From assembly GCA_020441905.1 (NCBI GenBank), contig JAGRLG010000031.1, forward strand, positions 1 to 64,000: a stretch of 64,000 nt of DNA, given 5' to 3'. Below, piece by piece: positions 19,455-40,044 of this stretch (positions are counted from its first letter, which is position 1; each line of letters opens with the position of its first letter). The position numbers and the translations under genes were made by a program. Source of the DNA: Rhodobiaceae bacterium (GTDB lineage Bacteria; Pseudomonadota; Alphaproteobacteria; Rhizobiales; NORP267). The notes under the pieces are model-generated. The model made no database searches. It worked only from the letters and a program-made list of their open reading frames with translations, and was not told where the DNA came from.

Positions 19455-21068
19455 CTAGAACCGCAGCGGTTCCTTGTAGCGTCCGTAGACATCAACCAGC
19501 ACGCCGCTCATCTCGCCGACGGTGGCGTAAGCCTTCACCGCCGCCATCAGGTCGGGCATGACATTGCCGCCGGCCTGCGCCGTCTTGCGCAAGGCGGCAA
19601 GGCAGCGCGCGACCTCGTCATTGGCGCGCTCGCGCTTGATCTTCTGCAATGAGTCGATCTGTTCCTGAGCGCCCGCCTGGTCATAGCCATGCAGCTCGAC
19701 CTGGGGCTTTTCTTCCCCGTCGTCGACATAGCAATTGACGCCGACCTTGTGGAACTCGCCCGACTGCAATTCCTTCTGGTGCTGATAGGCTTGCGCCGAC
19801 ACCTTGGACTGGATCAGGCCCTCGCTCACCGCCTTGATGATGCCGCCCTGGGAGTCCACCCAGTCCATGGCCTCGACGATCTTGTCTTCCATCTGGTTGG
19901 TCAGCGTCTCGACATAGTAGGAGCCGGCCAGCGGATCGACGGTATCGGTCAGCCCGATCTCCTCGATGAGGAGCTGCATGGTGCGCAAGCTGATGCGCTG
20001 CGCCTTGGGCGTCGGGATGGTGTAGGCCTCGTCATAGCAGCACAGCGCCATGGTCTGGGCGCCGCCCAGCGCGCCGGCAAGGGCGTAATAGGCGCCGCGC
20101 ATGATGTTGTTCTCCGGCTGCTCGATGGTCAGCCCGAAGCCGCCGCCGCCGGCGATCATGCGCAGCCAGCCCGATTTCGGGTCCTTGGCGCCATATTCGT
20201 CGAGCACGATCCTGGCCCAGCGCCGCCGCCCGGCGCGGAACTTGGCGACCTGCTCGAACAGGTTGCCGAAGATGTTGAAGTTGTAGGACAGCCGCCCGGC
20301 GAACTCGTCGATGTCGAGGCCGCGCGCCAGCGCCGCGTCGCTATAGGCCTTGGCGATGGAAAAGGCGAAACCCATTTCCTCCGCCGGCGTCGCACCGCTT
20401 TCCCGGATATGGTAGCCGCACACGCTCACCGGAGAATATTTCGGCGCCGCGGAGGCGCAATATTCGATGGTGTCGGCGACCAGCTTGACCGAGGGATCGA
20501 CCGGATAGATCCAGGTGCCGCGGCCGATAAACTCCTTGAGGATGTCGTTCTGCGCAGTGCCGCGCAGCTTGGAGACGTCGTAGCCGCGCTTTTCCGCCAT
20601 CGCCAGATACATGGCGATGATGATCGCCGCCGTACCGTTGATGGTCAGCGACACCGTGATCTTCTCAAGATCGATGCCGTCGAACGCGATCTCGAAATCG
20701 CGCAAGGTGTCGACCGCCATGCCGACGCGCCCGACCTCGCCATAGGCTTCCGCAGAGTCGGAATCATAGCCGCACTGGGTCGCCAGATCGAAGGCGACAT
20801 TGAGGCCGGTCTGGCCGTTGGCGATCAGGAAGTGGAAGCGTTCATTGGTATCGGCGGCATTGGCGAAGCCGGTATATTGCCGCATCGTCCATGGCCGCTT
20901 GCGGTACATATCGGCGTGGATGCCGCGAGTGAAGGGCGCCTCGCCCGGCAGGCTCTTGTCGATGCCGCCGGAGGCCTCGATGTCCTCGGCCGTATAGACG
21001 GCCTTGATGTCGATCCCCGATTCATTGACTACCCGCTTGGGCAGCGGTTTGCGGTCCATGGTGGTCAT
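19455..21068 (-). CDS. Methylmalonyl-CoA mutase-type enzyme, large (catalytic) subunit
   Basis: A 537-residue TIM-barrel subunit of an adenosylcobalamin-dependent acyl-CoA mutase, with the B12-binding domain encoded separately. By spacing from the conserved His (His220, GYHIRESGAT, equal to His244 of Propionibacterium shermanii MCM), Tyr65 (RQYTGF) matches MCM Tyr89, Gln173 matches Gln197 (TAQNDILKEF), Arg183 matches Arg207 and Arg259 matches Arg283. These are the methylmalonyl-CoA-type residues; isobutyryl-CoA and 2-hydroxyisobutyryl-CoA mutases carry Phe/Gln and Ile/Gln at the first and third. So a substrate with a free carboxylate is predicted. I start at ATG 21068, which shares one base with the small-subunit stop (TGATG), although the frame is open to 21245. 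No MeaB-type chaperone gene is nearby. Confidence 0.93.
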   Translation of the reverse strand: MTTMDRKPLPKRVVNESGIDIKAVYTAEDIEASGGIDKSLPGEAPFTRGIHADMYRKRPWTMRQYTGFANAADTNERFHFLIANGQTGLNVAFDLATQCGYDSDSAEAYGEVGRVGMAVDTLRDFEIAFDGIDLEKITVSLTINGTAAIIIAMYLAMAEKRGYDVSKLRGTAQNDILKEFIGRGTWIYPVDPSVKLVADTIEYCASAAPKYSPVSVCGYHIRESGATPAEEMGFAFSIAKAYSDAALARGLDIDEFAGRLSYNFNIFGNLFEQVAKFRAGRRRWARIVLDEYGAKDPKSGWLRMIAGGGGFGLTIEQPENNIMRGAYYALAGALGGAQTMALCCYDEAYTIPTPKAQRISLRTMQLLIEEIGLTDTVDPLAGSYYVETLTNQMEDKIVEAMDWVDSQGGIIKAVSEGLIQSKVSAQAYQHQKELQSGEFHKVGVNCYVDDGEEKPQVELHGYDQAGAQEQIDSLQKIKRERANDEVARCLAALRKTAQAGGNVMPDLMAAVKAYATVGEMSGVLVDVYGRYKEPLRF

Positions 21069-21460
21069 CACGCATTCTCCCGCACGAATTTGACAATATC
21101 GTCGAAATGGCTCGAGGTCGGAAACACGCCCTTGAAGCCGAGCTTGGCCAGCGGCTCGCGGTCCTTGTCCGGAATGTTGCCGCCGACCATCCACAGCCGG
21201 TCGTCGAGGCCCTGCGCGGTCAGGAGGTCGCGCAGCTTTTCGCACAGCGGCATGTGCGAGCCCGACAGGATCGACAGGCCGATGACATCGACATCCTCTT
21301 CCGCCGCGGCGGAAGCGATCTCCTCCGGCGTCTTGCGCAGGCCGGAATAGATGACCTCGAAGCCGGCATCGACCAGGGCGCGCACCAGCACCTTGGCGCC
21401 GACATCGTGGCCGTCGAGGCCCGGCTTGCCGATCAGGATTCTTATCTTGCGCTCGCTCAT
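21068..21460 (-). CDS. Cobalamin-binding small subunit of acyl-CoA mutase
   Basis: A 130-residue Rossmann-like B12-binding protein. The base-off/His-on signature DxHxxG is visible as Asp16-Gly-His18-Asp-Val-Gly21 within GKPGLDGHDVGAKV, with the downstream SILSGSH and GGNIPD loops that hold the nucleotide tail. Length fits free-standing small subunits such as HcmB or archaeal MCM small chains. Its start overlaps the acyl-CoA dehydrogenase stop by 4 bases and its end overlaps the large subunit start by 1. Confidence 0.95.
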   Translation of the reverse strand: MSERKIRILIGKPGLDGHDVGAKVLVRALVDAGFEVIYSGLRKTPEEIASAAAEEDVDVIGLSILSGSHMPLCEKLRDLLTAQGLDDRLWMVGGNIPDKDREPLAKLGFKGVFPTSSHFDDIVKFVRENA

Positions 21461-22594: not shown

Positions 22595-24277
22595 TCAGGC
22601 TTTCCCCTCATAGCCATAGTGTTCGCGCGCCGCTTCAAGCGAGATAATGCCGTCCCGGATTTCGCGGGCGAGCTTCTTGCGGTCGCGCTTTTTCGGATCC
22701 CCATATCCGCCGCCGCCGCCGGCGACCTGGTGATAATGGGTGTTTTTCGGCACGCCCATGATGAGGTCCTTGTTGCGCGGCACCCTTTTCGTGCCGTCGG
22801 GATAGGTCAGGGTGATTTCGTTGAGGATCGAATCCTTGCCGCCGAAGAGGCCGAAGGCGGGCTCGAAATCGCCGTCGCCGAAGGTGACGAACTGGGTGTT
22901 GTCGGAGCCAATGACATAATCGGTGACGACGCCAAGGCCGCCGCGCCACTGTCCCGCCCCTGCCGAGTCGGGCAGATATTCGTGGCGCTTCAAGAGGTGC
23001 GGCGTCTGCTGCTCGAACATCTCGTAATCCTGGTCGAGCAGTCCGCCGGAGGCATCGATCATGCCGATATGGTCATAGCCGTCGGTGCCCTTCATGGCCC
23101 CCGAGCCGCCCTTCAGCCCCATGAAGCCGATATCGACATATTTCTCGTTCTTTTGCGGGTCGATGCCGGTGGTCAGCGAACACAGGAGGTTGTTCCACCC
23201 CGCCGTCACCCGGTCGGGAATCACCGGCGCCAGGGCGCGGATGATGGCATCCGCGTTGGGCGGGCAGAGATGATTGCCGAAGGTCGTCGCCTTGGGATAG
23301 CTGGCATTGAGGATGGTGCCTTCGGGAATCTTGATTTCGATTGGCTGCACCATGCCCTCATTATGCGGCATGTCGGGATTGACCATCTGAAGAAGCGTCA
23401 GGATGGTCGCCGAGGCGCTGGAGGTGAAGGTGCCGTTGACGAAGCCGTCGGTCTGGGCATCGGTGCGCGAATAGTCGAAGGAAATCGACTTGTCCTTGAC
23501 CGTGATGTCGACGCGGATGGTGAATTCGGTGCCGACATGGTGGCCGTCGAAATAGACCATGCCCTCGCCGCTATAGGTCCCGTTGGGAATGGTGGCGATT
23601 TCAGCCTCCATCATTTTGCGGGTGGCGTCGAACAGGGCGGCCTTGTGAATCTCGAAGGTCCTGACGCCGTATTTGTCGAGCATTTCGACCACCCGCCTGG
23701 CGCCGACATTGCAGGCGCCCATCTGCGCCCGCATGTCGTGCTGCACGATATCGAGGCGGATATTGGCGAAGATGAGGTCCCAGACGTCCTTGCGCAGCTT
23801 GCCGCGCTCCACCACCTTGACGGGCGGAATGCGCAAGGCTTCCTGCCACACTTCGGTGGCGGTCGGATTGTAGCCGCCGGCGACAGCGCCGCCGATGTCG
23901 GCCTGGTGGCCCTTGACCGCGGTCCAGGCAACCAGCTTGCCCTCGTGGAACACCGGCTTGTAGACCGCGACGTCGTTGTTCTGGTTGCCCATGGAGAACA
24001 CGTCATTGTGGAAGATGACGTCGCCTTCATGGATGTCGTCGCCGAAGAACTCGACGATGTAGCGGCACACCGGCGCCAGCGAGAAGGCGAGGATCGGCAG
24101 GTTCTCGGTCTGCTCCAGCATGTTGCCCTGCGCGTCGTAAAGACCGGTTACGAAGTCCTTGGCTTCGCACAGGATCGGCGAGCGCGTCGTCTTCTGCACC
24201 GAGATGCTCATTTCATCCGTGATCGCCTTGAAGGCACGCGCGAATACGGAAAGAAGAATGGGATCGGCCTTGCTCAT
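22595..24277 (-). CDS. hyuB: Hydantoinase B / oxoprolinase family subunit (HyuB)
   Basis: A 560-residue HyuB-family protein. HyuB partners HyuA in ATP-dependent ring-opening or carboxylating enzymes: 5-oxoprolinase, N-methylhydantoinase, acetone and acetophenone carboxylases. Family motifs include GDVIFHNDVFSMGNQNNDV, NGTFTSSAS and the C-terminal VAGGGGGYGDPKKRD. The ATG overlaps the HyuA stop by 4 bases and has GGAGG inside the end of hyuA. No third, gamma-type subunit as in acetone carboxylase is present. Which amide, lactam or ketone is the substrate cannot be told. Confidence 0.92.
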   Translation of the reverse strand: MSKADPILLSVFARAFKAITDEMSISVQKTTRSPILCEAKDFVTGLYDAQGNMLEQTENLPILAFSLAPVCRYIVEFFGDDIHEGDVIFHNDVFSMGNQNNDVAVYKPVFHEGKLVAWTAVKGHQADIGGAVAGGYNPTATEVWQEALRIPPVKVVERGKLRKDVWDLIFANIRLDIVQHDMRAQMGACNVGARRVVEMLDKYGVRTFEIHKAALFDATRKMMEAEIATIPNGTYSGEGMVYFDGHHVGTEFTIRVDITVKDKSISFDYSRTDAQTDGFVNGTFTSSASATILTLLQMVNPDMPHNEGMVQPIEIKIPEGTILNASYPKATTFGNHLCPPNADAIIRALAPVIPDRVTAGWNNLLCSLTTGIDPQKNEKYVDIGFMGLKGGSGAMKGTDGYDHIGMIDASGGLLDQDYEMFEQQTPHLLKRHEYLPDSAGAGQWRGGLGVVTDYVIGSDNTQFVTFGDGDFEPAFGLFGGKDSILNEITLTYPDGTKRVPRNKDLIMGVPKNTHYHQVAGGGGGYGDPKKRDRKKLAREIRDGIISLEAAREHYGYEGKA

Positions 24278-26391
24278 GCCGTGACCTCCATGCGAACGGT
24301 TGCCGCCAGTTCGGGGCGTTCCTTGCGATACATGACCAGCGAGCCGGTGGCATCGACGACACAGTCGTGATTGGCGCCGACGAAAATCGCGGTGGTGATT
24401 TCCTCGATCAGCGCCGGCCCAACGATGGTATTGCCGTGGCGAAGGGCATGGCCGTCATAGACCGGCACTTCCTCGAAGGCGGCACGGTCGGGGATATAGA
24501 CCTGGCGCCGCTCCTTCACCGCGCGGGACGCATCGGCGCCGGCATGGGGTTCCTTGCGGAATTCCGGGCGCTGGGTGCGGCCCACGGCCTGGGTGCGCAC
24601 ATTGATGATCTCCACCGGCACGTCCTGCTCTTCCAGCGAATAGCCGTAGAGCCGGTTGTGCTCCTTGTGGAAGGCGGCGGCGATGGCCGTCTCGTCGCGC
24701 GCCGCCAGCGCTTCCGTCGGCACCACGAAGGACACCTCGTGATACTGCTTCAGGTAGCGGCAGTCGAACTTGACGGCATGGCTGCGCTTGTCTTCGGAAA
24801 TGCCCTCCTCGTCGAGCAGCTTGTTGCCTTCCGCGATCATGGCGTCGATCAGCGGCATCAGGGCTTTCCAGTCGGCGCCGGCAAGCGGGGAGACGAAGGT
24901 GCGCACGAAATCGTGCTTCAGATCGCTCATCAGCATGCCGACGGCGCACAGGATCGAGGATTCGCGCGGCACGATCTGCAAGGGAACCTCCAGTTCGTCG
25001 CAGATCAGGCAGGAATGGATCGGCCCGGCGCCGCCGGCAACCACCAGCGGGAATTCGCGCGGATCGAAGCCGCGCTGGATCGACACCTCGCGCACGCCCT
25101 GCGCCATATTGGTGCAGGCAATGCGGTACATGCCCGCCGCCGCCTCCTCGATCGAAAGCCCCAGCGGTTTGGCGATATGGGTCTCGATGGCCTTGCGCGC
25201 TTTTTCGACATCGAGCGACATCTTGCCGCCGGCGAAGAAGGTTGGGTTGAGATAGCCGAGCACGACATTGGCGTCGGTGGTGGCCGGCAGCTCGCCGCCC
25301 TTCGAATAACAGGCCGGTCCCGGCGCCGCGCCGGCGCTCTGCGGCCCCATGCGAAGCAGGCCGCCCTCGTCGATCCAGCCGATCGAACCGCCGCCAGCGC
25401 CGATGGTATGGATGCCGAGCATCGGCAGCGCGATGCGATGGCGGTCGATCTCCCCTTCATTGACCATGATCGGGGAATCGACCACCAGCGCGGCCTCGAA
25501 GCTGGTGCCGCCCATGTCGACGACGATGCACTTGCTCTGCTTGTGGGGGCGGACATATTCCAGCCCCGCGCCGGGGCCCGCGGCCGGGCCGGACAGCAGG
25601 GTCAGCGCCGACTTGTCGCGTGCCACCTGGGGCGACATGACGCCGCCATTCGACTGCATGATGAGGAGCAGGCCATTGAAGCCGGCCTGCTTCAGCCGCC
25701 CCTGGAGCTGGTTGAGATAATGATCGAGGATCGGCCCGACATAGGAATTGAGCGCCGTCGTCGAAACCCGCTCATAGAAGCGGATCGAGGGCAGGAGGTC
25801 GGTCGATACCGTGAGATAAGCGTCCGGCAATTCCTGGCGCACCAGCGCGGCGGCTTCCCTTTCATGGGCCGGATTGGCAAAAGCGTTCATGAAGCAGATC
25901 GACACCGCTTTCACGCCCTCGGCCTTGAACAGTTCGACCGCCTCGCGCACCTCCTCCAGCGACAGCGGCTCAACCTCCTTGCCGTTGCGGTCGAGCCGGC
26001 CGGTCACGCCGATGCGCAGGTAGCGCTCGACCAGCGGCGCCACATTGGTGTAGCGGTTGTTGTACTGCTCCTCGCGGATGCCGCGGCGCATTTCCAGCGC
26101 GTCGCGCACCCCCTTGGTGGTGATGAGGCCGCACTTGGCGCCATTTCGCGTCAGCGTCGCATTGGTGGTCACCGTGGTGCCGTGGACGATGGTGTCGATC
26201 TGGCCGGCGAATTCGGCCAGCGACAGCGGCGGCTCCAGTGTGGCGGCGATTTCCTCCAGCCCCGAAATCACCGCGATCGAGGGGTCGGCCGGAGTTGAAA
26301 GCACCTTGGCCACGACCGGGTCGCGCCCTGGATGGGTGACGAAAAAATCGGTGAAGGTGCCACCGACATCGATTCCAACCCTGTACGTCAT
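24274..26391 (-). CDS. hyuA: Hydantoinase A / oxoprolinase family subunit (HyuA)
   Basis: A 705-residue ATP-binding subunit of the ASKHA fold. The phosphate-1 motif YRVGIDVGGTFTDFF is at the N-terminus; HGTTVTTNATLTRNG, KCIVVDMGGTSFE (phosphate 2) and VAGGAGPIHSC follow as in 5-oxoprolinases and acetone carboxylase beta chains. It would phosphorylate the substrate so that HyuB can open or carboxylate it. It abuts the acyl-CoA synthetase stop with no gap and overlaps hyuB by 4 bases. Confidence 0.93.
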   Translation of the reverse strand: MTYRVGIDVGGTFTDFFVTHPGRDPVVAKVLSTPADPSIAVISGLEEIAATLEPPLSLAEFAGQIDTIVHGTTVTTNATLTRNGAKCGLITTKGVRDALEMRRGIREEQYNNRYTNVAPLVERYLRIGVTGRLDRNGKEVEPLSLEEVREAVELFKAEGVKAVSICFMNAFANPAHEREAAALVRQELPDAYLTVSTDLLPSIRFYERVSTTALNSYVGPILDHYLNQLQGRLKQAGFNGLLLIMQSNGGVMSPQVARDKSALTLLSGPAAGPGAGLEYVRPHKQSKCIVVDMGGTSFEAALVVDSPIMVNEGEIDRHRIALPMLGIHTIGAGGGSIGWIDEGGLLRMGPQSAGAAPGPACYSKGGELPATTDANVVLGYLNPTFFAGGKMSLDVEKARKAIETHIAKPLGLSIEEAAAGMYRIACTNMAQGVREVSIQRGFDPREFPLVVAGGAGPIHSCLICDELEVPLQIVPRESSILCAVGMLMSDLKHDFVRTFVSPLAGADWKALMPLIDAMIAEGNKLLDEEGISEDKRSHAVKFDCRYLKQYHEVSFVVPTEALAARDETAIAAAFHKEHNRLYGYSLEEQDVPVEIINVRTQAVGRTQRPEFRKEPHAGADASRAVKERRQVYIPDRAAFEEVPVYDGHALRHGNTIVGPALIEEITTAIFVGANHDCVVDATGSLVMYRKERPELAATVRMEVTA

Positions 26392-29117: not shown

Positions 29118-30572
29118 CTAGACCAGCCCCAGCCACTGCCACCACAAGAACTCCAGCGGCAGCAGGATCGCCAGCGACAGCGCGGTCACCGCCAGGGTGA
29201 AGCGCGAACCCTCGCCGATGCCGACCCCCGACAGGCCCATCGCCACCAGGATCGGCGATGCCTGATAGGGCAGCACGACGTTGGTGAAGCCGAAGACCTG
29301 GGTATAGAGCACCGTCTCCACGGGCAGCCGGGTCAGCTCGGCCAGGTCCCCGGCCAGCGGGCTGAGAACCGCCGGCACCGCCGGGTTGGTGGTGATCATG
29401 CCCATCAGGGCCGACGACGCCGACAGCGCCATGAAAGAAGCCCAGCGCGGGGCGGATTCGCTCGGCACCAGATCGAGCAGCCAGTGACCAAGTTCGCTGG
29501 CAAGGCCGCTGGCGGCAATCGAGGCGCCCATGCCGATCACCGCCGCGGTATAGAGCACCGAGGCATAGTCGAGCCGCTCATTGACGGTTTTCGCCGGTAC
29601 AAGATTGAGCCCCGGCAGCAGCAGAACGAATGCGGCGGCAAGGCCGACCCAGGGCGCCGCGATGCCATGCAGCGTGTCGGTGACCCAAAACACGAGCGCG
29701 AGCGCCAGGATCGCCGCGAGGCGGATCTCGCCGCGCTTCAGCGCGGTGCGCGCCGAGGAAGGCCCGGCTTCCTTTCGCGGGCTGTCGCGGAACAGGATGA
29801 GCGCCACGGCGACGATCAGCCCGGCGCGCAGCACGCCCATGACCGGGAAATTGACCAGCAGATAGCCGCCATAGGTAAACACCGTGCCATAGAGCGTCTC
29901 GGCGGCGCCGGCGAGGATCATGCCCGGCAGGTGCGAGGGCAGGATGGTGCCGCCGGGGGTAAAGCAGACCAGCGCCGCCACCATCACCATGCCGGCCCGC
30001 CCGCGGCTGCGCGGCCCGAATCCCAGCGCCTCGGCGATCGCCACCACCAGCGGCACCAGCAGCACGACGCGGCCCATCGAGGACGGCATGACGAAGGACA
30101 GCGCCATGGCGACGGCGGCAATGCCCGTCAGCACCCGGCCATAGGAATTACCGATGCCCTGAAGCGCCGCCCTGGCGAAGCGCTCGCCAAGCCCGGTATG
30201 ATTGACGGCGACCCCGATCACCATGCCGCCGAAGACCAGCCACAACGCGCCCGAGGCAAAGCCGGAAAACACCACCGCCGCCGGCTGCACCTTGAGCAGC
30301 ATGCCGAAGGTAAGAAAACCGACCGCGGTGATGCCAAGCGGCAGGGCGCCGCTGGCCAGCAGCGTCACCGTGGCCACGGTCAGCCCGGCGACCCTGATCG
30401 AAGCCGGGTTCCAGCCTTCGGGAACCGGAGCCGCCAGCGCCGCCAAAAGGGCCGCCGCGGCAAATCCGAGGGCAAGGATGGAAGACGGCGTGAAGCCTGG
30501 CGCGTCCGCCGCCGCGCCCGCCGCCGCGCCCATGCGCGTCGGAGCGGGCCTGTTCGTCGTGCTGTCTGCCAT
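29118..30572 (-). CDS. DASS/SLC13-type dicarboxylate or anion:Na+ symporter
   Basis: A 484-residue inner-membrane transporter with about 12 hydrophobic segments and a short polar N-terminal tail. The two SNT-type hairpin signatures of the divalent anion:Na+ symporter family are suggested by FVMPSSMGRVVLLVPLV and GMITTNPAVPAVLSPL. Substrates in the family are C4/C5 dicarboxylates, citrate or sulfate. GGAGAG precedes the ATG at 30572. It is followed closely on the plus-strand side by tetR (convergent) and preceded by the iclR gene on the same strand with a 23-bp gap, so the two are probably co-transcribed. Confidence 0.85.
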   Translation of the reverse strand: MADSTTNRPAPTRMGAAAGAAADAPGFTPSSILALGFAAAALLAALAAPVPEGWNPASIRVAGLTVATVTLLASGALPLGITAVGFLTFGMLLKVQPAAVVFSGFASGALWLVFGGMVIGVAVNHTGLGERFARAALQGIGNSYGRVLTGIAAVAMALSFVMPSSMGRVVLLVPLVVAIAEALGFGPRSRGRAGMVMVAALVCFTPGGTILPSHLPGMILAGAAETLYGTVFTYGGYLLVNFPVMGVLRAGLIVAVALILFRDSPRKEAGPSSARTALKRGEIRLAAILALALVFWVTDTLHGIAAPWVGLAAAFVLLLPGLNLVPAKTVNERLDYASVLYTAAVIGMGASIAASGLASELGHWLLDLVPSESAPRWASFMALSASSALMGMITTNPAVPAVLSPLAGDLAELTRLPVETVLYTQVFGFTNVVLPYQASPILVAMGLSGVGIGEGSRFTLAVTALSLAILLPLEFLWWQWLGLV

Positions 30573-30595
30573 ATGCGGCTCTCCAAAAACCGGCT

Positions 30596-31363
30596 TTAGC
30601 CGTGATAGGTGTGCCAGATCTCGCCCATGCGCTGCGCCGCCTCGCGCGTCGCCGGCAGCAGGGCCTGGTGCAATTGCTCTTCCCACACCGCGTCGCGCAG
30701 ATAGATCAGCACCATGGCCCCGATCGCCTGCTCCCCGGACAGCACCGGCACCGCGGCGACCCTGGTGCCCTCGATCGGCGAATCGTAGTCGCGCTGGGCA
30801 TAGCCGTCACGCCGAAATATGGCGATACCCCCCTCGACATGATTGCGTATTGCCGCCGCATCGCGCCGCTCCCAGTCGACCGCCGCGCGCAGCCTTGCCT
30901 CGCGTTCGACGGGCTTGGCGGCGGCGAGATAGGCGATGCCGGCGGCCGAGTCGTGAATGGGAAACCGCGTCTGCTCGAACCGGTTGAGGCTGATCGGCGA
31001 AACGTCGCGGCTCGACGCCTGGATCACCATGGCGCCGCCCTCCGGCAGCAGGAACTCCGCCGGCCATTTGACGCCGTGGGAGAAGTCGGTGAGCAGGCGG
31101 CGGATCGCGCTCACCGCCGGGTTCTGGATCGCCTGGGCGCTCGACAGCAACCGCGCCTTGGGCGCCACCTTGTAGCCGCGGCCGCTGTCGTCGAGATCGA
31201 CATAGCCTTCGGCGCGCAGCGTATTGAGCGTGCGTACCACCGGGGCCTTGGGGAAACCGGTGAGCGCAACGAGCTGCGATACCGTTGCCAGCGGATGTTC
31301 GTTGAGCGTCGCCAGCAGCCGCAGGCCCCGCGCCAGTGCCTGGATTGGCTCCTGCTTCGCCAC
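30596..31363 (-). CDS. IclR family transcriptional regulator
   Basis: A 255-residue IclR protein: N-terminal winged HTH (LARGLRLLATLNEHPLATVSQLVALTGFPKAPVVRTLNTL) and C-terminal effector domain. The frame extends to 31528, but GTG 31363 (VAKQEPIQALARG) has GAGGAG at good spacing and starts where relatives do. It is divergent from the reductive-dehalogenase-like gene, and inverted repeats between them look like its operators. It probably controls that gene and the transporter gene in response to a small carboxylic acid. Confidence 0.9.
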   Translation of the reverse strand: MAKQEPIQALARGLRLLATLNEHPLATVSQLVALTGFPKAPVVRTLNTLRAEGYVDLDDSGRGYKVAPKARLLSSAQAIQNPAVSAIRRLLTDFSHGVKWPAEFLLPEGGAMVIQASSRDVSPISLNRFEQTRFPIHDSAAGIAYLAAAKPVEREARLRAAVDWERRDAAAIRNHVEGGIAIFRRDGYAQRDYDSPIEGTRVAAVPVLSGEQAIGAMVLIYLRDAVWEEQLHQALLPATREAAQRMGEIWHTYHG

Positions 31364-31421
31364 CCGCGTCTCCTCTTCCCGGCGCCCGCCATCAATCCAT
31401 GGGCGCGGCACGCCTCTCAGC

Positions 31422-31477
31422 GCGGACAAAACCAAAGGCGGTCCGGTTTGTCCATCATAAACTGGACCACCGGTCCA
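31422..31477. promoter_or_regulatory. IclR operator region with nested inverted repeats
   Basis: Three overlapping inverted repeats: GGACAAAACC (from about 31423) with GGTTTGTCC (31445-31453); GGTCCGGTTT (31440-31449) with AAACTGGACC (31459-31468), one mismatch; and TGGACC-ACC-GGTCCA (31463-31477), perfect. A minus-strand TATGAT (31454-31459) is a candidate -10 box for iclR that lies inside the operators, consistent with autorepression. Confidence 0.6.
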
Positions 31478-31623
31478 TTTTATTGACATCGCGGCTGGAT
31501 CCATGCTTGGCTCGGTCACGGTCGGCATTGTGCGGCCCGATATTTTGCCGGCTCGCCGCTGGTGGGGGGCAAAGATCTTGGACTTGGTGCCCGCCCGGGC
31601 GCGCCGAAAGGGGAAGCCTGCCC

Positions 31624-33873
31624 ATGCTGCTCAAGACCGCCGCCGATAAGCGCCCCTATCATCTGGGCACCTATCCGCTGGAGACGCTGCCCCGCGACGA
31701 GGCCGTGATCGCGCTGGAATGCGCCCGCGCGCCGCTCGCGGGCCGTGCCGGCGAGGAAGCTCCCCAAGGTCCACTGGCGCGTGCCGCGAGAACCTATCGC
31801 GACACCTTCGCCGGCCACGCGGCGGGTGACCCGGCGCCGGTCAGGGCCCCGGTGCCGGACGATCTTGCCCGCCGCGCCGTCGACATCAAGGGCTATGGCT
31901 ATTTTCTCAATGCCGACCAGGTCGGCATCTGCCAAATGCCCGCCAGCGCCTGGCTGGCCGAAGCCGAACCGGATACCCACGGCCATGCGATCGTGTTGCT
32001 GATCGCCCATGGCCGCGTGCCCGAGGAAGGCAATCCGGCCCGCGCCCTTGCCGCGCCGGCGATTGGCGAAACCGCCGACATGCGGGCCACCGAAATCGCC
32101 GTCTGCGTCGCCCGCCATATCCGCGTCATGGGCTTTTCGGCCACCGCCCATGCCGCCGGCTGCGGCCAGGTGGATAGGGACCGCCTTGCCGTGCTGGCCG
32201 GCCTGTGCGTGCGCGACGGCGCGACCCTGCGCAATCCCTTTGTCGGGCGCGGCTTTTCGCTGGCGGTGGTGACCACCGGTTATGAACTGCCCCATGACCT
32301 GCCGCTGGCCGCCACCGCGCTCAAGGCCGGAGGTCTTGGCTATTGGCTGGGGGTCAATGGCGCGACCTCGGGGCGAGAGCGGGGCCGCCGTGCCGCCCGC
32401 CCCACCCATCTCAGCGCCTATCCCATGGAAACGGTCAAGCGCGTCGAGCGGCCGACGACCCTCATCCTCGATGACGAGATTCCCCGCGTGCCCAAGCGCG
32501 CCGCCTTTTTCGAGCGCGCCCTGCGCGGCGATCTGGGGGCCAAGGCACAGCGCGAGCGCAACCGCTTTGCCTTCAAGCAGCCCCACACCTACGGCATTCT
32601 CGGCCCCATGCGCGACCTCGTGCCGATGCAGGACGGGGAGGTCGGCAAGGATGCCGATACGTCGCTTTACGGCGATCCGGAGGCCAATTCGCGGGCCTTG
32701 AAGTCACTATCCTATCTGCTCGGTTCCGACCTCACCGGCATCTGCGAAATTCCATCCTACGCCTGGTACTCGCATAACAGCGCCGGTGAGGAGATTGTGC
32801 CCTATCACCGCTACGCCGTGGTCATGCTCACCGACCAGGAATACGACACCATGGAGGGCGCCTCCGGCGATGACTGGATCTCCGGCGCCCAGTCGATGCG
32901 CGCCTATCTGCGCGGCGCCGAGATCGCCGGCATCATGGCCGATGTCATCCGCCAGCTCGGCTTTCCCGCCCGGGCGCAGACCAATGTCGACAGCGACGTG
33001 CTGCAACTGCCGCTGACCCTGTGGTCCGGCCTCGGCGAGCTCAGCCGCATCGGCGAGCTGGTGCTCAATCCTTTTGTCGGTCCGCGGTTCAAATCGGTGG
33101 TGCTGACCACCGACATGCCGCTTCAGGTCGACAAGCCGATCGATTTCGGCCTGCAATATTTCTGCAATCACTGCTGGAAATGCGCCCGTGAATGCCCCTG
33201 CGACGCCATCCCCTGGGGCAATTCGGTGATGTTCAACGGCTATGAGATGTTCAAGATCGACGCCGAGCGTTGCGCCAGATACCGGCTGACCAATTCGAAG
33301 GGCTCGGCCTGCGGGCGCTGCATGAAGATGTGCCCGCTCAACAAGGTCGTGACCGCCGACGGGCCGCTGTTGCAGCGCATGGCCAGCTGGTGCGGCATTC
33401 ATGCCCGCTGGCTCAAGCCGCTGCTGGTGCCGATCGCCGTCAAGCTCGACGACTGGCTGGGGCACGGCACCCGGAACGCGGTCAAGAAGTGGTGGCTCGA
33501 CCTGGAAATCGTCGACAATATCTGCGTCGATCCGGTGGCCGGCACCAACGAGCGCGATCTCAATCTCGATCACAGGATCGAGGCCGACAAACAGAAGATG
33601 GCCTATTACTTCGCCAGCATGATGCCGGTGCCCAATGACGTCGACCCCCAGCCGGTCGACCGCAAGGCGGCATTGGCCGCCGCCAGTTTGCTGGAAACCC
33701 CGGCCGAAGCGCGGGCGCGCAAGGCGGCCGGGGGCGCGCGCCCCGCCCATTACGTGCCGACGCCGCCGGCGCCAGGCGGGCCGCGCGGCACGGCCGATGC
33801 CAGCGGGCCGAGCATCTACAGCCAGGCTGGCGGAACGGGCAGGAAACCCGCGGCGGCTGCGGGCAAGAAATAG
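31624..33873 (+). CDS. Reductive-dehalogenase-like 2x[4Fe-4S] protein with a duplicated corrinoid-type domain
   Basis: A 749-residue protein of the RdhA/QueG superfamily. Two copies of the nitroreductase-like domain are visible: about 85-220 (YFLNADQVGICQMPASAW ... NPFVGRGFSLAVVTT) and 355-500 (YLLGSDLTGICEIPSYAW ... NPFVGPRFKSVVLTT). The ferredoxin-like segment follows: FCNHCWKCARECPCDAI (about 514-530) and CGRCMKMCPLNK (about 562-573). There is no twin-arginine signal and no membrane anchor, unlike respiratory RdhA, and no C-terminal flavodoxin-reductase module, unlike catabolic aerobic RdhA. The tail from about 725 is Ala/Pro/Gly-rich. Divergent from an IclR gene and next to a transporter and an Old Yellow Enzyme. 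Family is clear; dehalogenation is only a possibility. Start chosen at ATG 31624, the first Met of the conserved part. Confidence 0.8.
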   Translation: MLLKTAADKRPYHLGTYPLETLPRDEAVIALECARAPLAGRAGEEAPQGPLARAARTYRDTFAGHAAGDPAPVRAPVPDDLARRAVDIKGYGYFLNADQVGICQMPASAWLAEAEPDTHGHAIVLLIAHGRVPEEGNPARALAAPAIGETADMRATEIAVCVARHIRVMGFSATAHAAGCGQVDRDRLAVLAGLCVRDGATLRNPFVGRGFSLAVVTTGYELPHDLPLAATALKAGGLGYWLGVNGATSGRERGRRAARPTHLSAYPMETVKRVERPTTLILDDEIPRVPKRAAFFERALRGDLGAKAQRERNRFAFKQPHTYGILGPMRDLVPMQDGEVGKDADTSLYGDPEANSRALKSLSYLLGSDLTGICEIPSYAWYSHNSAGEEIVPYHRYAVVMLTDQEYDTMEGASGDDWISGAQSMRAYLRGAEIAGIMADVIRQLGFPARAQTNVDSDVLQLPLTLWSGLGELSRIGELVLNPFVGPRFKSVVLTTDMPLQVDKPIDFGLQYFCNHCWKCARECPCDAIPWGNSVMFNGYEMFKIDAERCARYRLTNSKGSACGRCMKMCPLNKVVTADGPLLQRMASWCGIHARWLKPLLVPIAVKLDDWLGHGTRNAVKKWWLDLEIVDNICVDPVAGTNERDLNLDHRIEADKQKMAYYFASMMPVPNDVDPQPVDRKAALAAASLLETPAEARARKAAGGARPAHYVPTPPAPGGPRGTADASGPSIYSQAGGTGRKPAAAAGKK

Positions 33874-35568: not shown

Positions 35569-37896
35569 ATGAACGCCAAACCCGCCGGCTCCCGCGGCCC
35601 GCTCAAGATCGCCTGCCTCGGCGGCGGCCCCGCCGGCCTCTATTTCGCCTTGCTGATGAAGAAGCAGAATCCGGCCCATGTCATTACCGTCTACGAGCGC
35701 AACCGGCCCTATGACACTTTTGGCTGGGGCGTCGTCTTTTCCGACGAAACCATCGAGAACCTGGCCAGTGCCGATCCCGGCAGCCGCGACGAGATTCTCG
35801 GCGCGCTGGCCCATTGGGACGACATCGACACCCATTTCAAGGGCCGCCTGATCCGCTCCGGCGGCCATGGCTTCGCCGGTATCGAGCGCAAGAAGCTGCT
35901 CAACATCCTTCAGGCCCATTGCGAGGCGAACGGCGTCAAGCTGGTGTTCGAATATGAGGTCGGCGACCTCGAACCCTACCAGGACTGTGATCTCATCATC
36001 GCCTGCGATGGCCTGAATTCAGGCATCCGCACCCGGCTTGCCGGCCATTTCAAACCGCAGATCGAGGTCCGCAAGAACAAGTTCGTCTGGCTCGGCACCA
36101 AGAAGCTGTTCGACGCCTTCACCTTCATTTTCGTCGAGACCGAATGGGGCTGGTTCCAGGCCCATGCCTACCGCTTCAACGAGGACACCTCGACCTTCAT
36201 CGTCGAGACCCCGGAGAGCGTTTTCGAGGCCGCCGGAATCGACAAGATGAGCCAGGAAGCGGGCATAAAGTTCTGCGAGAACCTCTTCGCCGACTATCTG
36301 GATGGCAACCCGTTGATCTCCAACGCCAAACATTTGCGCGGCTCTGCTATATGGATCAATTTTCCCCGCGTTTCCAACGAACGCTGGGTCAAGGACAATA
36401 TCGTTCTCATGGGCGACGCCGCCCATACCGCCCATTTTTCCATCGGCTCCGGCACCAAGCTGGCAATGGAGGACGCCATTTCGCTGGCCCGTCTTTTCGA
36501 GGAGCGCCCCAAGGCCACGATCCGCGAACTGCTCGCCGCCTATGAAGAAGAGCGCAAGGTCGAGGTCATAAAAATCCAGTCCTCGGCCCGCAATTCCATG
36601 GAGTGGTTCGAGAATGTCGCCCGCTACACCCATATGGAGCCCGAGCAGTTCACCTATTCCATGCTGACCCGCTCGCAGCGCGTTTCCCACGAGAACCTGC
36701 GTCTGCGCGATGTCACCTACCTGGAGGATATGGAGCGCTGGTTCGCGTCGAAGGCCACCGGCAAGACAGCGAAAGGCGCCGTGCCGCCGATGTTCACGCC
36801 GTTCAAGCTGCGCGACCTGACGCTGGCCAATCGCATCGTCGTTTCGCCCATGGCGACCTATAGCGCCGATGATGGCGTGCCCGGCGATTTCCATCTCGTC
36901 CATCTCGGCGCCAGGGCCCAGGGCGGCGCCGGCCTGGTGATGACCGAAATGACCTGCGTTTCGCCGCAAGGGCGGATCTCTCCCGGCTGCACCGGCCTGT
37001 GGAACGACGAGCAGGGCCGCGCCTTTGCCCGCATCACCGGGTTTGTCCACCGCAATACAAAAGCCCATATCGGCCTTCAGCTCGGCCATTCCGGCCCCAA
37101 GGGCTCGACCGGCCTCGGCTGGGACGGCGCCGATGAACCGCTGAAAGAGGGCAACTGGCCGCTCATTGCCGCCTCGCCGGTCAAGTGGGCACCGGCCAAC
37201 CAGACCCCGCGCGAGGCCACCCGCGCCGACATGGAGCAGGTGATCGCCCAGTTCGCCGACGCCACCAGGCGCGGCGCGGCGGCCGATTTCGACCTCCTCG
37301 AACTACACGCCGCCCATGGCTATCTGCTGTCCTCCTTCATCTCGCCGCTGACCAACAGGCGCGAGGATGACTATGGCGGCACGATTGACAACCGCCTGCG
37401 TTTTCCCCTTGAGGTCTTCGACGCCATGCGCGCCGCCTGGCCGGCCCATAAACCGATCTCGGTGCGCATATCGGCCACCGACTGGCACCCGGACGGGCTG
37501 ACCCATGAAGAGGCCATCGCCGTCGCCAAAGCCTTCGCCGAGCACGGTGCCGACCTCATCGACGTGTCCGCAGGGCAGACCTCGATCGAGGCCCAGCCGG
37601 TCTATGGCCGCATGTTCCAGACGCCCTTGTCGGACATGATCCGCAACGAAACCGGTCTTGCCACCATGGCGGTGGGCAATATCTTCGAGGCCGATCACGC
37701 CAATTCGATCATCGCCGCCGGCCGCGCCGATCTGGTGGCGCTGGCGCGGCCCCATCTGGCCGATCCCTACTGGACCCTTCATGCCGCCGCCCATCTCGGC
37801 TATGACGGAACTCCATGGCCGGTTCAGTATCGCGCCGGCGCAGAGCAATACCGGCGCAACCTGGAGCGCGCCGACCAGATAGCGGAGCTGATCTGA
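35569..37896 (+). CDS. Bifunctional aryl-CoA monooxygenase/reductase (2-aminobenzoyl-CoA or salicylyl-CoA type)
   Basis: A 775-residue two-domain flavoenzyme. Residues about 1-390 are a class A FAD monooxygenase: GxGxxG at 18-23 ([16 protein letters not shown]) and the GD motif [17 protein letters not shown]. Residues about 405-770 are an Old Yellow Enzyme reductase ([20 protein letters not shown] ... [17 protein letters not shown]). This architecture is that of Azoarcus 2-aminobenzoyl-CoA monooxygenase/reductase, which hydroxylates and then reduces the ring of anthraniloyl-CoA; databases also label it salicylyl-CoA 5-hydroxylase. GAGAGGA precedes the ATG. The next genes (MarR, aryl-CoA ligase, RidA) fit anthranilate degradation by the CoA-dependent aerobic route. 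Choice between amino and hydroxy substrate is inferred from context. Confidence 0.9.
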
Positions 37897-38378: not shown

Positions 38379-38442
38379 GCCGCCGGGGCCGGAATTAAGA
38401 GCAATAACGGCGTCAATGCCGCTGACTTGGGGGATACGTCCC

Positions 38443-40044
38443 ATGATTGACGATTTTGCCGCACGCAATCTGCCGCCGCCGCGGCTATGGCCCGAGATCG
38501 ATCTCAGCCATCCCGCCTATCACTATCCACCGCGCATCAATTGCGTTTCCCGTTTCCTCGACCGCTGGATCGCGGAGGGCAGGGGGGCACGGCGCGCCAT
38601 TGTCGCGCCGGGATCGACCTGGACCTATCAGGACCTCTATGAGCGCGTGAACCGCCTCGCCCATGTCCTGGTCGAGGATCTTGGCCTGGTGCCCGGCAAC
38701 CGGGTGCTGCTGCGCTCGGTCAATGCCCCGATGATGGTCGCCGCCTATCTTGCCGTCATCAAGGCCGGGGGCATCGCCGTCGGCACCATGGCGCTCCTTC
38801 GCGAGAACGAGCTTGCCGCCATCATCGACAAGGCCGAAATCGGCCTCGCCCTGTGCGACGCCGCCCTCGGCGAGGCGCTGGAAAAGGCGAAAGCGAAAGC
38901 GCCGGCCCTCAGGCGCATCGCCTATTTCGACAACGAAAAGGGCGCTGGCGAGGTGGAAAAGCTGATGGCCGGCCGGCCGGCAGAGTTCACGTCCTTTGAC
39001 AGCCGCGCCGACGATATCTGCCTCATCGCCTTCACCTCCGGCACCACCGGCAAGCCCAAGGGCACGATCCATTTCCACCGCGACCTGCTGGCGATCTGCG
39101 ATGGCTTCTCCGCCCTCGTATTGAAACCCGAGCCGGACGATTTGTTCTGCGGCAGTCCGCCGCTCGCCTTCACTTTCGGACTTGGCGGCCTCGCCCTGTT
39201 CCCCCTTCACGCCGGTTCCGCCACCCTCCTGCTGCCCTCGGCGACACCGCCCGAGCTCGTCGCGGCGATAGAAAAATACCGCGCGACGTTCTGCTTCACC
39301 GCGCCCACCGCCTACCGCGTCATGCTGTCCCATCTCGCCGAACACGACATTTCCTCGCTGCGCCGCGCCGTCTCCGCCGGCGAGCACCTGCCCAAGGCTA
39401 TCTACGACGCGGTTTGCGAGGCGACCGGCCTCAAGCTCATCGATGGCCTTGGCTCCACCGAGATGCTCCATGTCTTCATCACCTCGGCCGATGAAGACAT
39501 CCGCCCCGGCGCCACCGGCATCCCGGTGCCGGGCTACCGCGCCGCCATTCTCGACGACGACGGCAAGGAAGTTCCCCCCGGCACCGTCGGCGCCCTTGCT
39601 GTCAAGGGCCCCACGGGCTGCCGCTATCTCGCCGACGAGCGCCAGAGCGTCTATGTCCGCAATGGCTGGAATATCACCGGCGACGCCTATCTTCAGGATG
39701 AGGACGGCTATTTCTGGTTCCAGGCCAGGGCCGACGACATGATCATTTCCGCTGGCTACAACATCGCCGGCCCCGAGGTCGAGAACGCGCTGCTGACCCA
39801 TGAGGCGGTGGCCGAATGCGCCGTCGTCGGCGCCCCCGACGAGGAGCGCGGCATGATCGTCAAGGCCTTTGTCGTCCTCGCCCCCGGTGTGGTTGGCGAC
39901 GGCGCGCTGGTCAAGGCGTTGCAGACCCACGTCAAGGCCGAGATCGCGCCCTATAAATATCCCCGCGCCATCGAATTCGTCGCCGCCCTGCCCAAGACCG
40001 GCACCGGCAAGATCCAGCGCTTCAAGCTTCGCGAAAAGGACTAG
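38443..40044 (+). CDS. Aryl-CoA ligase (benzoate / 2-aminobenzoate-CoA ligase family)
   Basis: A 533-residue AMP-forming ligase of the benzoate-CoA ligase group, activating the aromatic acid for the bifunctional enzyme encoded upstream. Motifs: P-loop FTSGTTGKPKGTIHFH, GLGSTEMLHVF, GWNITGDAYLQDEDG and the C-terminal Lys in PKTGTGKIQRFK. The ATG at 38443 has GGGGGA upstream; ATG 38416 in the same frame is less well placed. The neighbouring genes suggest anthranilate (or salicylate) as substrate. Confidence 0.92.
   Translation: MIDDFAARNLPPPRLWPEIDLSHPAYHYPPRINCVSRFLDRWIAEGRGARRAIVAPGSTWTYQDLYERVNRLAHVLVEDLGLVPGNRVLLRSVNAPMMVAAYLAVIKAGGIAVGTMALLRENELAAIIDKAEIGLALCDAALGEALEKAKAKAPALRRIAYFDNEKGAGEVEKLMAGRPAEFTSFDSRADDICLIAFTSGTTGKPKGTIHFHRDLLAICDGFSALVLKPEPDDLFCGSPPLAFTFGLGGLALFPLHAGSATLLLPSATPPELVAAIEKYRATFCFTAPTAYRVMLSHLAEHDISSLRRAVSAGEHLPKAIYDAVCEATGLKLIDGLGSTEMLHVFITSADEDIRPGATGIPVPGYRAAILDDDGKEVPPGTVGALAVKGPTGCRYLADERQSVYVRNGWNITGDAYLQDEDGYFWFQARADDMIISAGYNIAGPEVENALLTHEAVAECAVVGAPDEERGMIVKAFVVLAPGVVGDGALVKALQTHVKAEIAPYKYPRAIEFVAALPKTGTGKIQRFKLREKD

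Follow-up and report, generated by a model that had tools for sequence, protein, structure and literature searches.

The 64,000-nucleotide stretch of contig JAGRLG010000031.1 (Rhodobiaceae bacterium, GenBank assembly GCA_020441905.1; the whole stretch is called the window here) carries a gene, rdhA, for a protein in which a corrinoid-type domain appears to occur twice. This raises the question of whether the gene encodes a new two-corrinoid enzyme or a reductive dehalogenase (RdhA) of a class characterized before. We found that the window RdhA very probably belongs to the known unfused ("truncated") clade of catabolic RdhAs and that it resembles NpRdhA from Nitratireductor pacificus (PDB 4ras, 6zxu, 6zxx, 6zy0, 6zy1), a catabolic reductive dehalogenase and the closest known system. 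Catabolic RdhAs are defined by a vestigial duplicate of the cobalamin-binding domain, and a clade of them that lacks the reductase domain has been described (PMC10463259). The duplicated-domain layout is already known from crystallography and is new here only as a further member; the original prediction, which had presented this architecture as a novelty, was mistaken on this point since a function has already been assigned to it.

The open reading frame (ORF) is free of stops. A longer ORF with a GTG start at 31336 lies upstream of the ATG at 31624, but the ATG is likely to be the rdhA start because the homologues start at the same place, the proteins of close relatives also beginning with an N-terminus of the MLFRTAA..RPYHLG type. 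No twin-arginine motif (the Tat signal of respiratory RdhAs) was found in residues 1-60, the mean hydropathy never exceeded 1.6 in any 19-residue segment so that no membrane-spanning stretch was detected, and the ORF stops at aa 749 with no reductase domain of the BhbA-type PDOR kind. Motif, hydropathy and domain scans thus agree with the prediction that Tat signal, anchor and fused reductase are lacking. BhbA (Comamonas sp. 7D-2) and JtRdhA (Jhaorihella thermophila) are self-sufficient catabolic RdhAs with a fused C-terminal PDOR reductase, whereas the window RdhA is unfused. It shares with BhbA the duplicated-domain RdhA portion and the catalytic S, M, Y, K and R, and JtRdhA has both of these too (PMC10463259). 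Taken together, the window RdhA shows the features of the unfused NpRdhA subfamily: an N-terminal B12-domain duplicate, an eight-Cys module, the catalytic Y/K/R, no Tat or membrane stretch, no C-terminal PDOR and grouping with NpRdhA.

In profile searches the window RdhA narrowly passed the NCBIfam reductive dehalogenase model TIGR02486 (162.2 bits, cut-off 160.35). A Pfam PF13486 search of the own genome gave no match, but its control gave none either. In the PDB, NpRdhA (4ras) aligned with residues 9-706 (626 bits, E 7e-187). The Tat-exported respiratory RdhA PceA from Sulfurospirillum multivorans (PDB 4uqu) was matched only at aa 440-624, which corresponds to the second domain and the Fe-S module. 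Both enzymes have a B12 core and a 2x[4Fe-4S] module, but PceA, unlike the window RdhA, has one B12 domain and is dimeric (PMC10463259). A relationship to epoxyqueuosine reductase (QueG) might be considered since the class III B12 fold is common to both. However, the QueG model TIGR00276 gave only 23.2 bits (cut-off 200) while TIGR02486 was passed, and NpRdhA was matched end to end. Because of these profile scores and this match QueG membership was rejected, and we assign it a practically negligible probability. A maximum-likelihood tree of 35 RdhAs separated unfused (26, including NpRdhA) from fused forms (9, including BhbA) with a support of 100/100 and placed the window RdhA in the unfused clade with NpRdhA. 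Its nearest rows come from metagenome-assembled genomes (MAGs) of Alphaproteobacteria, Burkholderiales and unclassified Proteobacteria (about 65-72% identity). NpRdhA and a paralogue of the window RdhA (L027, see below) sit on long branches, which makes their exact places unsure.

When aa 88-227 were aligned with aa 359-505, we observed 48 identities among 140 aligned residues (34%). The two-copy Smith-Waterman score was 143, whereas 2000 shuffles gave a mean of 28.4 ± 4.5 and a maximum of 57 (z = 25). By the same measure, a score of 222 was obtained for NpRdhA and of 143 for BhbA. The predicted homology of the two corrinoid-type segments was thereby confirmed, but the accompanying statement that only one such domain is present in aerobic catabolic RdhAs was wrong, as NpRdhA and BhbA are equally duplicated. 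When the first copy was modelled on its own with AlphaFold (pLDDT 87.9), the resulting structure matched NpRdhA residues 66-232 with Z 20.6 and PceA and QueG with Z 14.2 each. Since it superposes on these structures, the first copy is, according to the model, a B12-type domain with the RdhA/QueG fold, and the structure prediction shows this segment to be related. The full-length AlphaFold model reached Z 33.6 over 592 residues to NpRdhA, but it is a low-confidence model (mean pLDDT 66.5, Fe-S module below 50) and was for this reason not used for active-site geometry.

The overall B12-domain fold retained by the first copy and its 34% identity to the second would suit a two-corrinoid enzyme of a new kind, whose first domain would be either a second B12-binding site or a corrinoid sensor with a regulatory role. 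However, Y428, K490, N454 and S424 of the second copy are replaced in the first by D152, S212, A178 and G148, and these lost catalytic positions are consistent with a non-catalytic domain. In NpRdhA, the equivalent domain is free of cobalamin and cannot bind it; it imitates the respiratory dimer interface, and NpRdhA is therefore a monomer (PMC10463259). Because of the lost positions and the cobalamin-free equivalent, we rejected a two-corrinoid enzyme as very improbable. The suggestion that one copy binds cobalamin and that the two form an internal pseudo-dimer was right in substance, but the NpRdhA crystal structure had already shown this (PMC10463259); a regulatory role of the first copy found no support here.

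As predicted, a single Cys-rich 2x[4Fe-4S] module follows the repeats (Cys 514, 517, 520, 524 and 550, 563, 566, 570). In NpRdhA numbering, the window RdhA retains F290, F291, F310, S422, M423, Y426, N452, K488 and R552, the catalytic Y426, K488 and R552 corresponding to its Y428, K490 and R554. Like NpRdhA, the protein combines a duplicated B12 domain, a core B12 domain, a 2x[4Fe-4S] module and a C-terminal tail with these active-site residues and lacks a reductase domain. The only differences among the sites checked are P311 to A and A419 to G. A419 lines the NpRdhA pocket, and its exchange to M raises the relative preference for mono-halogenated substrates (PMC7565698); the glycine of the window RdhA may widen the second halogen site.

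Homology to NpRdhA suggests the following mechanism. The second B12-type domain (aa ~341-505) would bind base-off cobalamin, and the two [4Fe-4S] clusters would hand electrons to the cobalt. S424, K490 and R554 would hold a phenolic substrate such that the ortho halogen sits on the cobalt, and Y428 would give a proton when the carbon-halogen bond is broken. The first B12-type domain would be a decayed duplicate that has lost B12 binding and packs on the core like the second subunit of dimeric respiratory RdhAs, so that a monomeric pseudo-dimer results. The protein is predicted to be a soluble cytoplasmic, catabolic enzyme with an unlinked electron donor. It probably removes bromine or chlorine ortho to the phenolic OH from a hydroxybenzoate- or phenol-type compound, the product of which would enter aromatic pathways.

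The neighbouring genes (Table 1), among which an OYE-family enzyme gene is also found, suggest that a halogenated hydroxybenzoate-type compound is dehalogenated and feeds aromatic-CoA catabolism. Among the relatives, amidohydrolase-2 genes lie near rdhA at four loci (L001, L004, L005, L019), and at L001 a LigB ring-opening dioxygenase gene adjoins it.

Table 1. Position and assignment of rdhA, its protein domains and neighbouring genes in the window
Feature	Position	Strand	Basis
rdhA, unfused catabolic reductive dehalogenase (749 aa)	31624..33873	+	ORF, domain, PDB and tree matches
First B12-type domain, repeat aa 88-227, probably vestigial	31885..32304	+	internal homology, model, lost catalytic positions; PMC10463259 for the NpRdhA equivalent
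Second B12-type domain, repeat aa 359-505, probably cobalamin-binding; S424, M425, Y428, N454, K490	32698..33138	+	sequence alignments
2x[4Fe-4S] module, aa 514-570, eight conserved Cys, contains active-site R554	33163..33333	+	domain scan, alignment
IclR-family regulator gene, running divergently to rdhA, which it may regulate	30596..31528	-	domain scans
DASS/CitMHS-type transporter, likewise divergent; candidate for substrate uptake	29118..30686	-	domain scans
Bifunctional salicylyl-CoA 5-hydroxylase/oxidoreductase (NF006101, 1307 bits); aromatic-CoA catabolism context, putative link to rdhA	35569..37896	+	
Benzoate-CoA-ligase-like enzyme (364.5 bits, cut-off 375.25); putative link to rdhA	38416..40044	+	

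Several points weigh against a catabolic dehalogenase of this type. An identity of about 40% to NpRdhA leaves the substrate unfixed. That the first copy is probably vestigial is something we infer from NpRdhA and the lost residues. The NpRdhA cluster contains ferredoxin and ferredoxin-reductase genes (PMC10463259), but beside the window rdhA we found neither a ferredoxin nor a reductase gene. Clustering of all ORFs from 19 related loci indicated that no direct neighbour of the window rdhA recurs beside its relatives, and for this reason we only infer the substrate. Finally, rdhA of Woeseiaceae relatives adjoins NUDIX and metallo-beta-lactamase-fold genes on its downstream side, which leaves a catabolic role across the clade unproved. 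In Woeseiaceae and related MAGs (L007:7977-11754, also L011, L012, L013 and L016) rdhA overlaps or abuts the NUDIX gene, and the metallo-beta-lactamase-fold gene follows in an operon-like trio.

This varied gene context, which in Woeseiaceae is not that of aromatic catabolism, and the long-branched position of NpRdhA apart from the main clade would fit cobalamin chemistry on a non-halogenated substrate by proteins of the same fold, in which case the clade would not be dehalogenases. However, nearly all unfused relatives tested keep the pocket and proton-donor residues of NpRdhA except P311 and A419, L027 being the exception. The fused forms, in which several other pocket residues are changed, keep S422, M423, Y426, K488 and R552, and brominated phenols are substrates of BhbA and JtRdhA (PMC10463259). 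We therefore consider a non-halogenated substrate improbable and prefer dehalogenation.

The own genome encodes CobN and CobO of B12 biosynthesis, and the host therefore probably makes its own B12. It contains a second unfused catabolic RdhA of 728 aa (L027; G000:C3:29404-31581, minus strand), which is 51% identical to the window RdhA, differs from NpRdhA in the pocket (F291 to Y, F310 to W, N452 to S, P311 to S, A419 to G) and is adjoined by a divergent MarR regulator gene. A third RdhA-like protein (L028:1399-2439; G000:C55, match 29890-30360, minus strand) has 346 aa and a single B12-type domain; with 90 bits for TIGR02486 (cut-off 160.35) and 32.7 bits for the QueG model (cut-off 200) it is not clearly assignable to either RdhA or QueG. 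The window also carries a gene of the methylmalonyl-CoA-mutase family, another B12-enzyme family (19455-21245, minus strand), and a hydantoinase A/B-type pair (22595-26391, minus strand). The A subunit of this pair reached 679 of the 1000 bits that the caprolactamase alpha model requires, and its substrate is therefore probably different from that of the model.

As to the electron donor, no PDOR-like gene was found in the window (tblastn) or at any unfused locus examined, and this large clade thus has no linked PDOR-type partners at these loci. Eight 2Fe-2S ferredoxin-type matches were obtained in the own genome, one of them within its one PDOR-like reductase (C57:2414-3280), which is 37% identical to the BhbA reductase domain. 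This reductase is only a weak candidate donor because it adjoins an apparent Rieske oxygenase locus with a GntR-type regulator (translated neighbours read by eye). For NpRdhA, in vitro reconstitution with the partners encoded in its own cluster failed (PMC10463259). It is conceivable, if rather unlikely, that the physiological substrate or electron donor of the large unfused clade (Woeseiaceae, Alphaproteobacteria, Burkholderiales MAGs) differs from that of NpRdhA and that the two paralogues of the host serve different halogenated substrates.

There is little architectural news in the window RdhA, as its duplicated-domain layout is known from the crystal structure 4ras, released in 2014. Mildly notable is that the host genome also encodes a diverged paralogue and, as a third gene product, an RdhA-like protein with a single domain. 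What the locus adds is a conserved set of unfused catabolic RdhAs from uncultured proteobacteria, which bears on the question of the cellular reductant for unfused RdhAs and on the spread of aromatic dehalogenation among aerobic bacteria.
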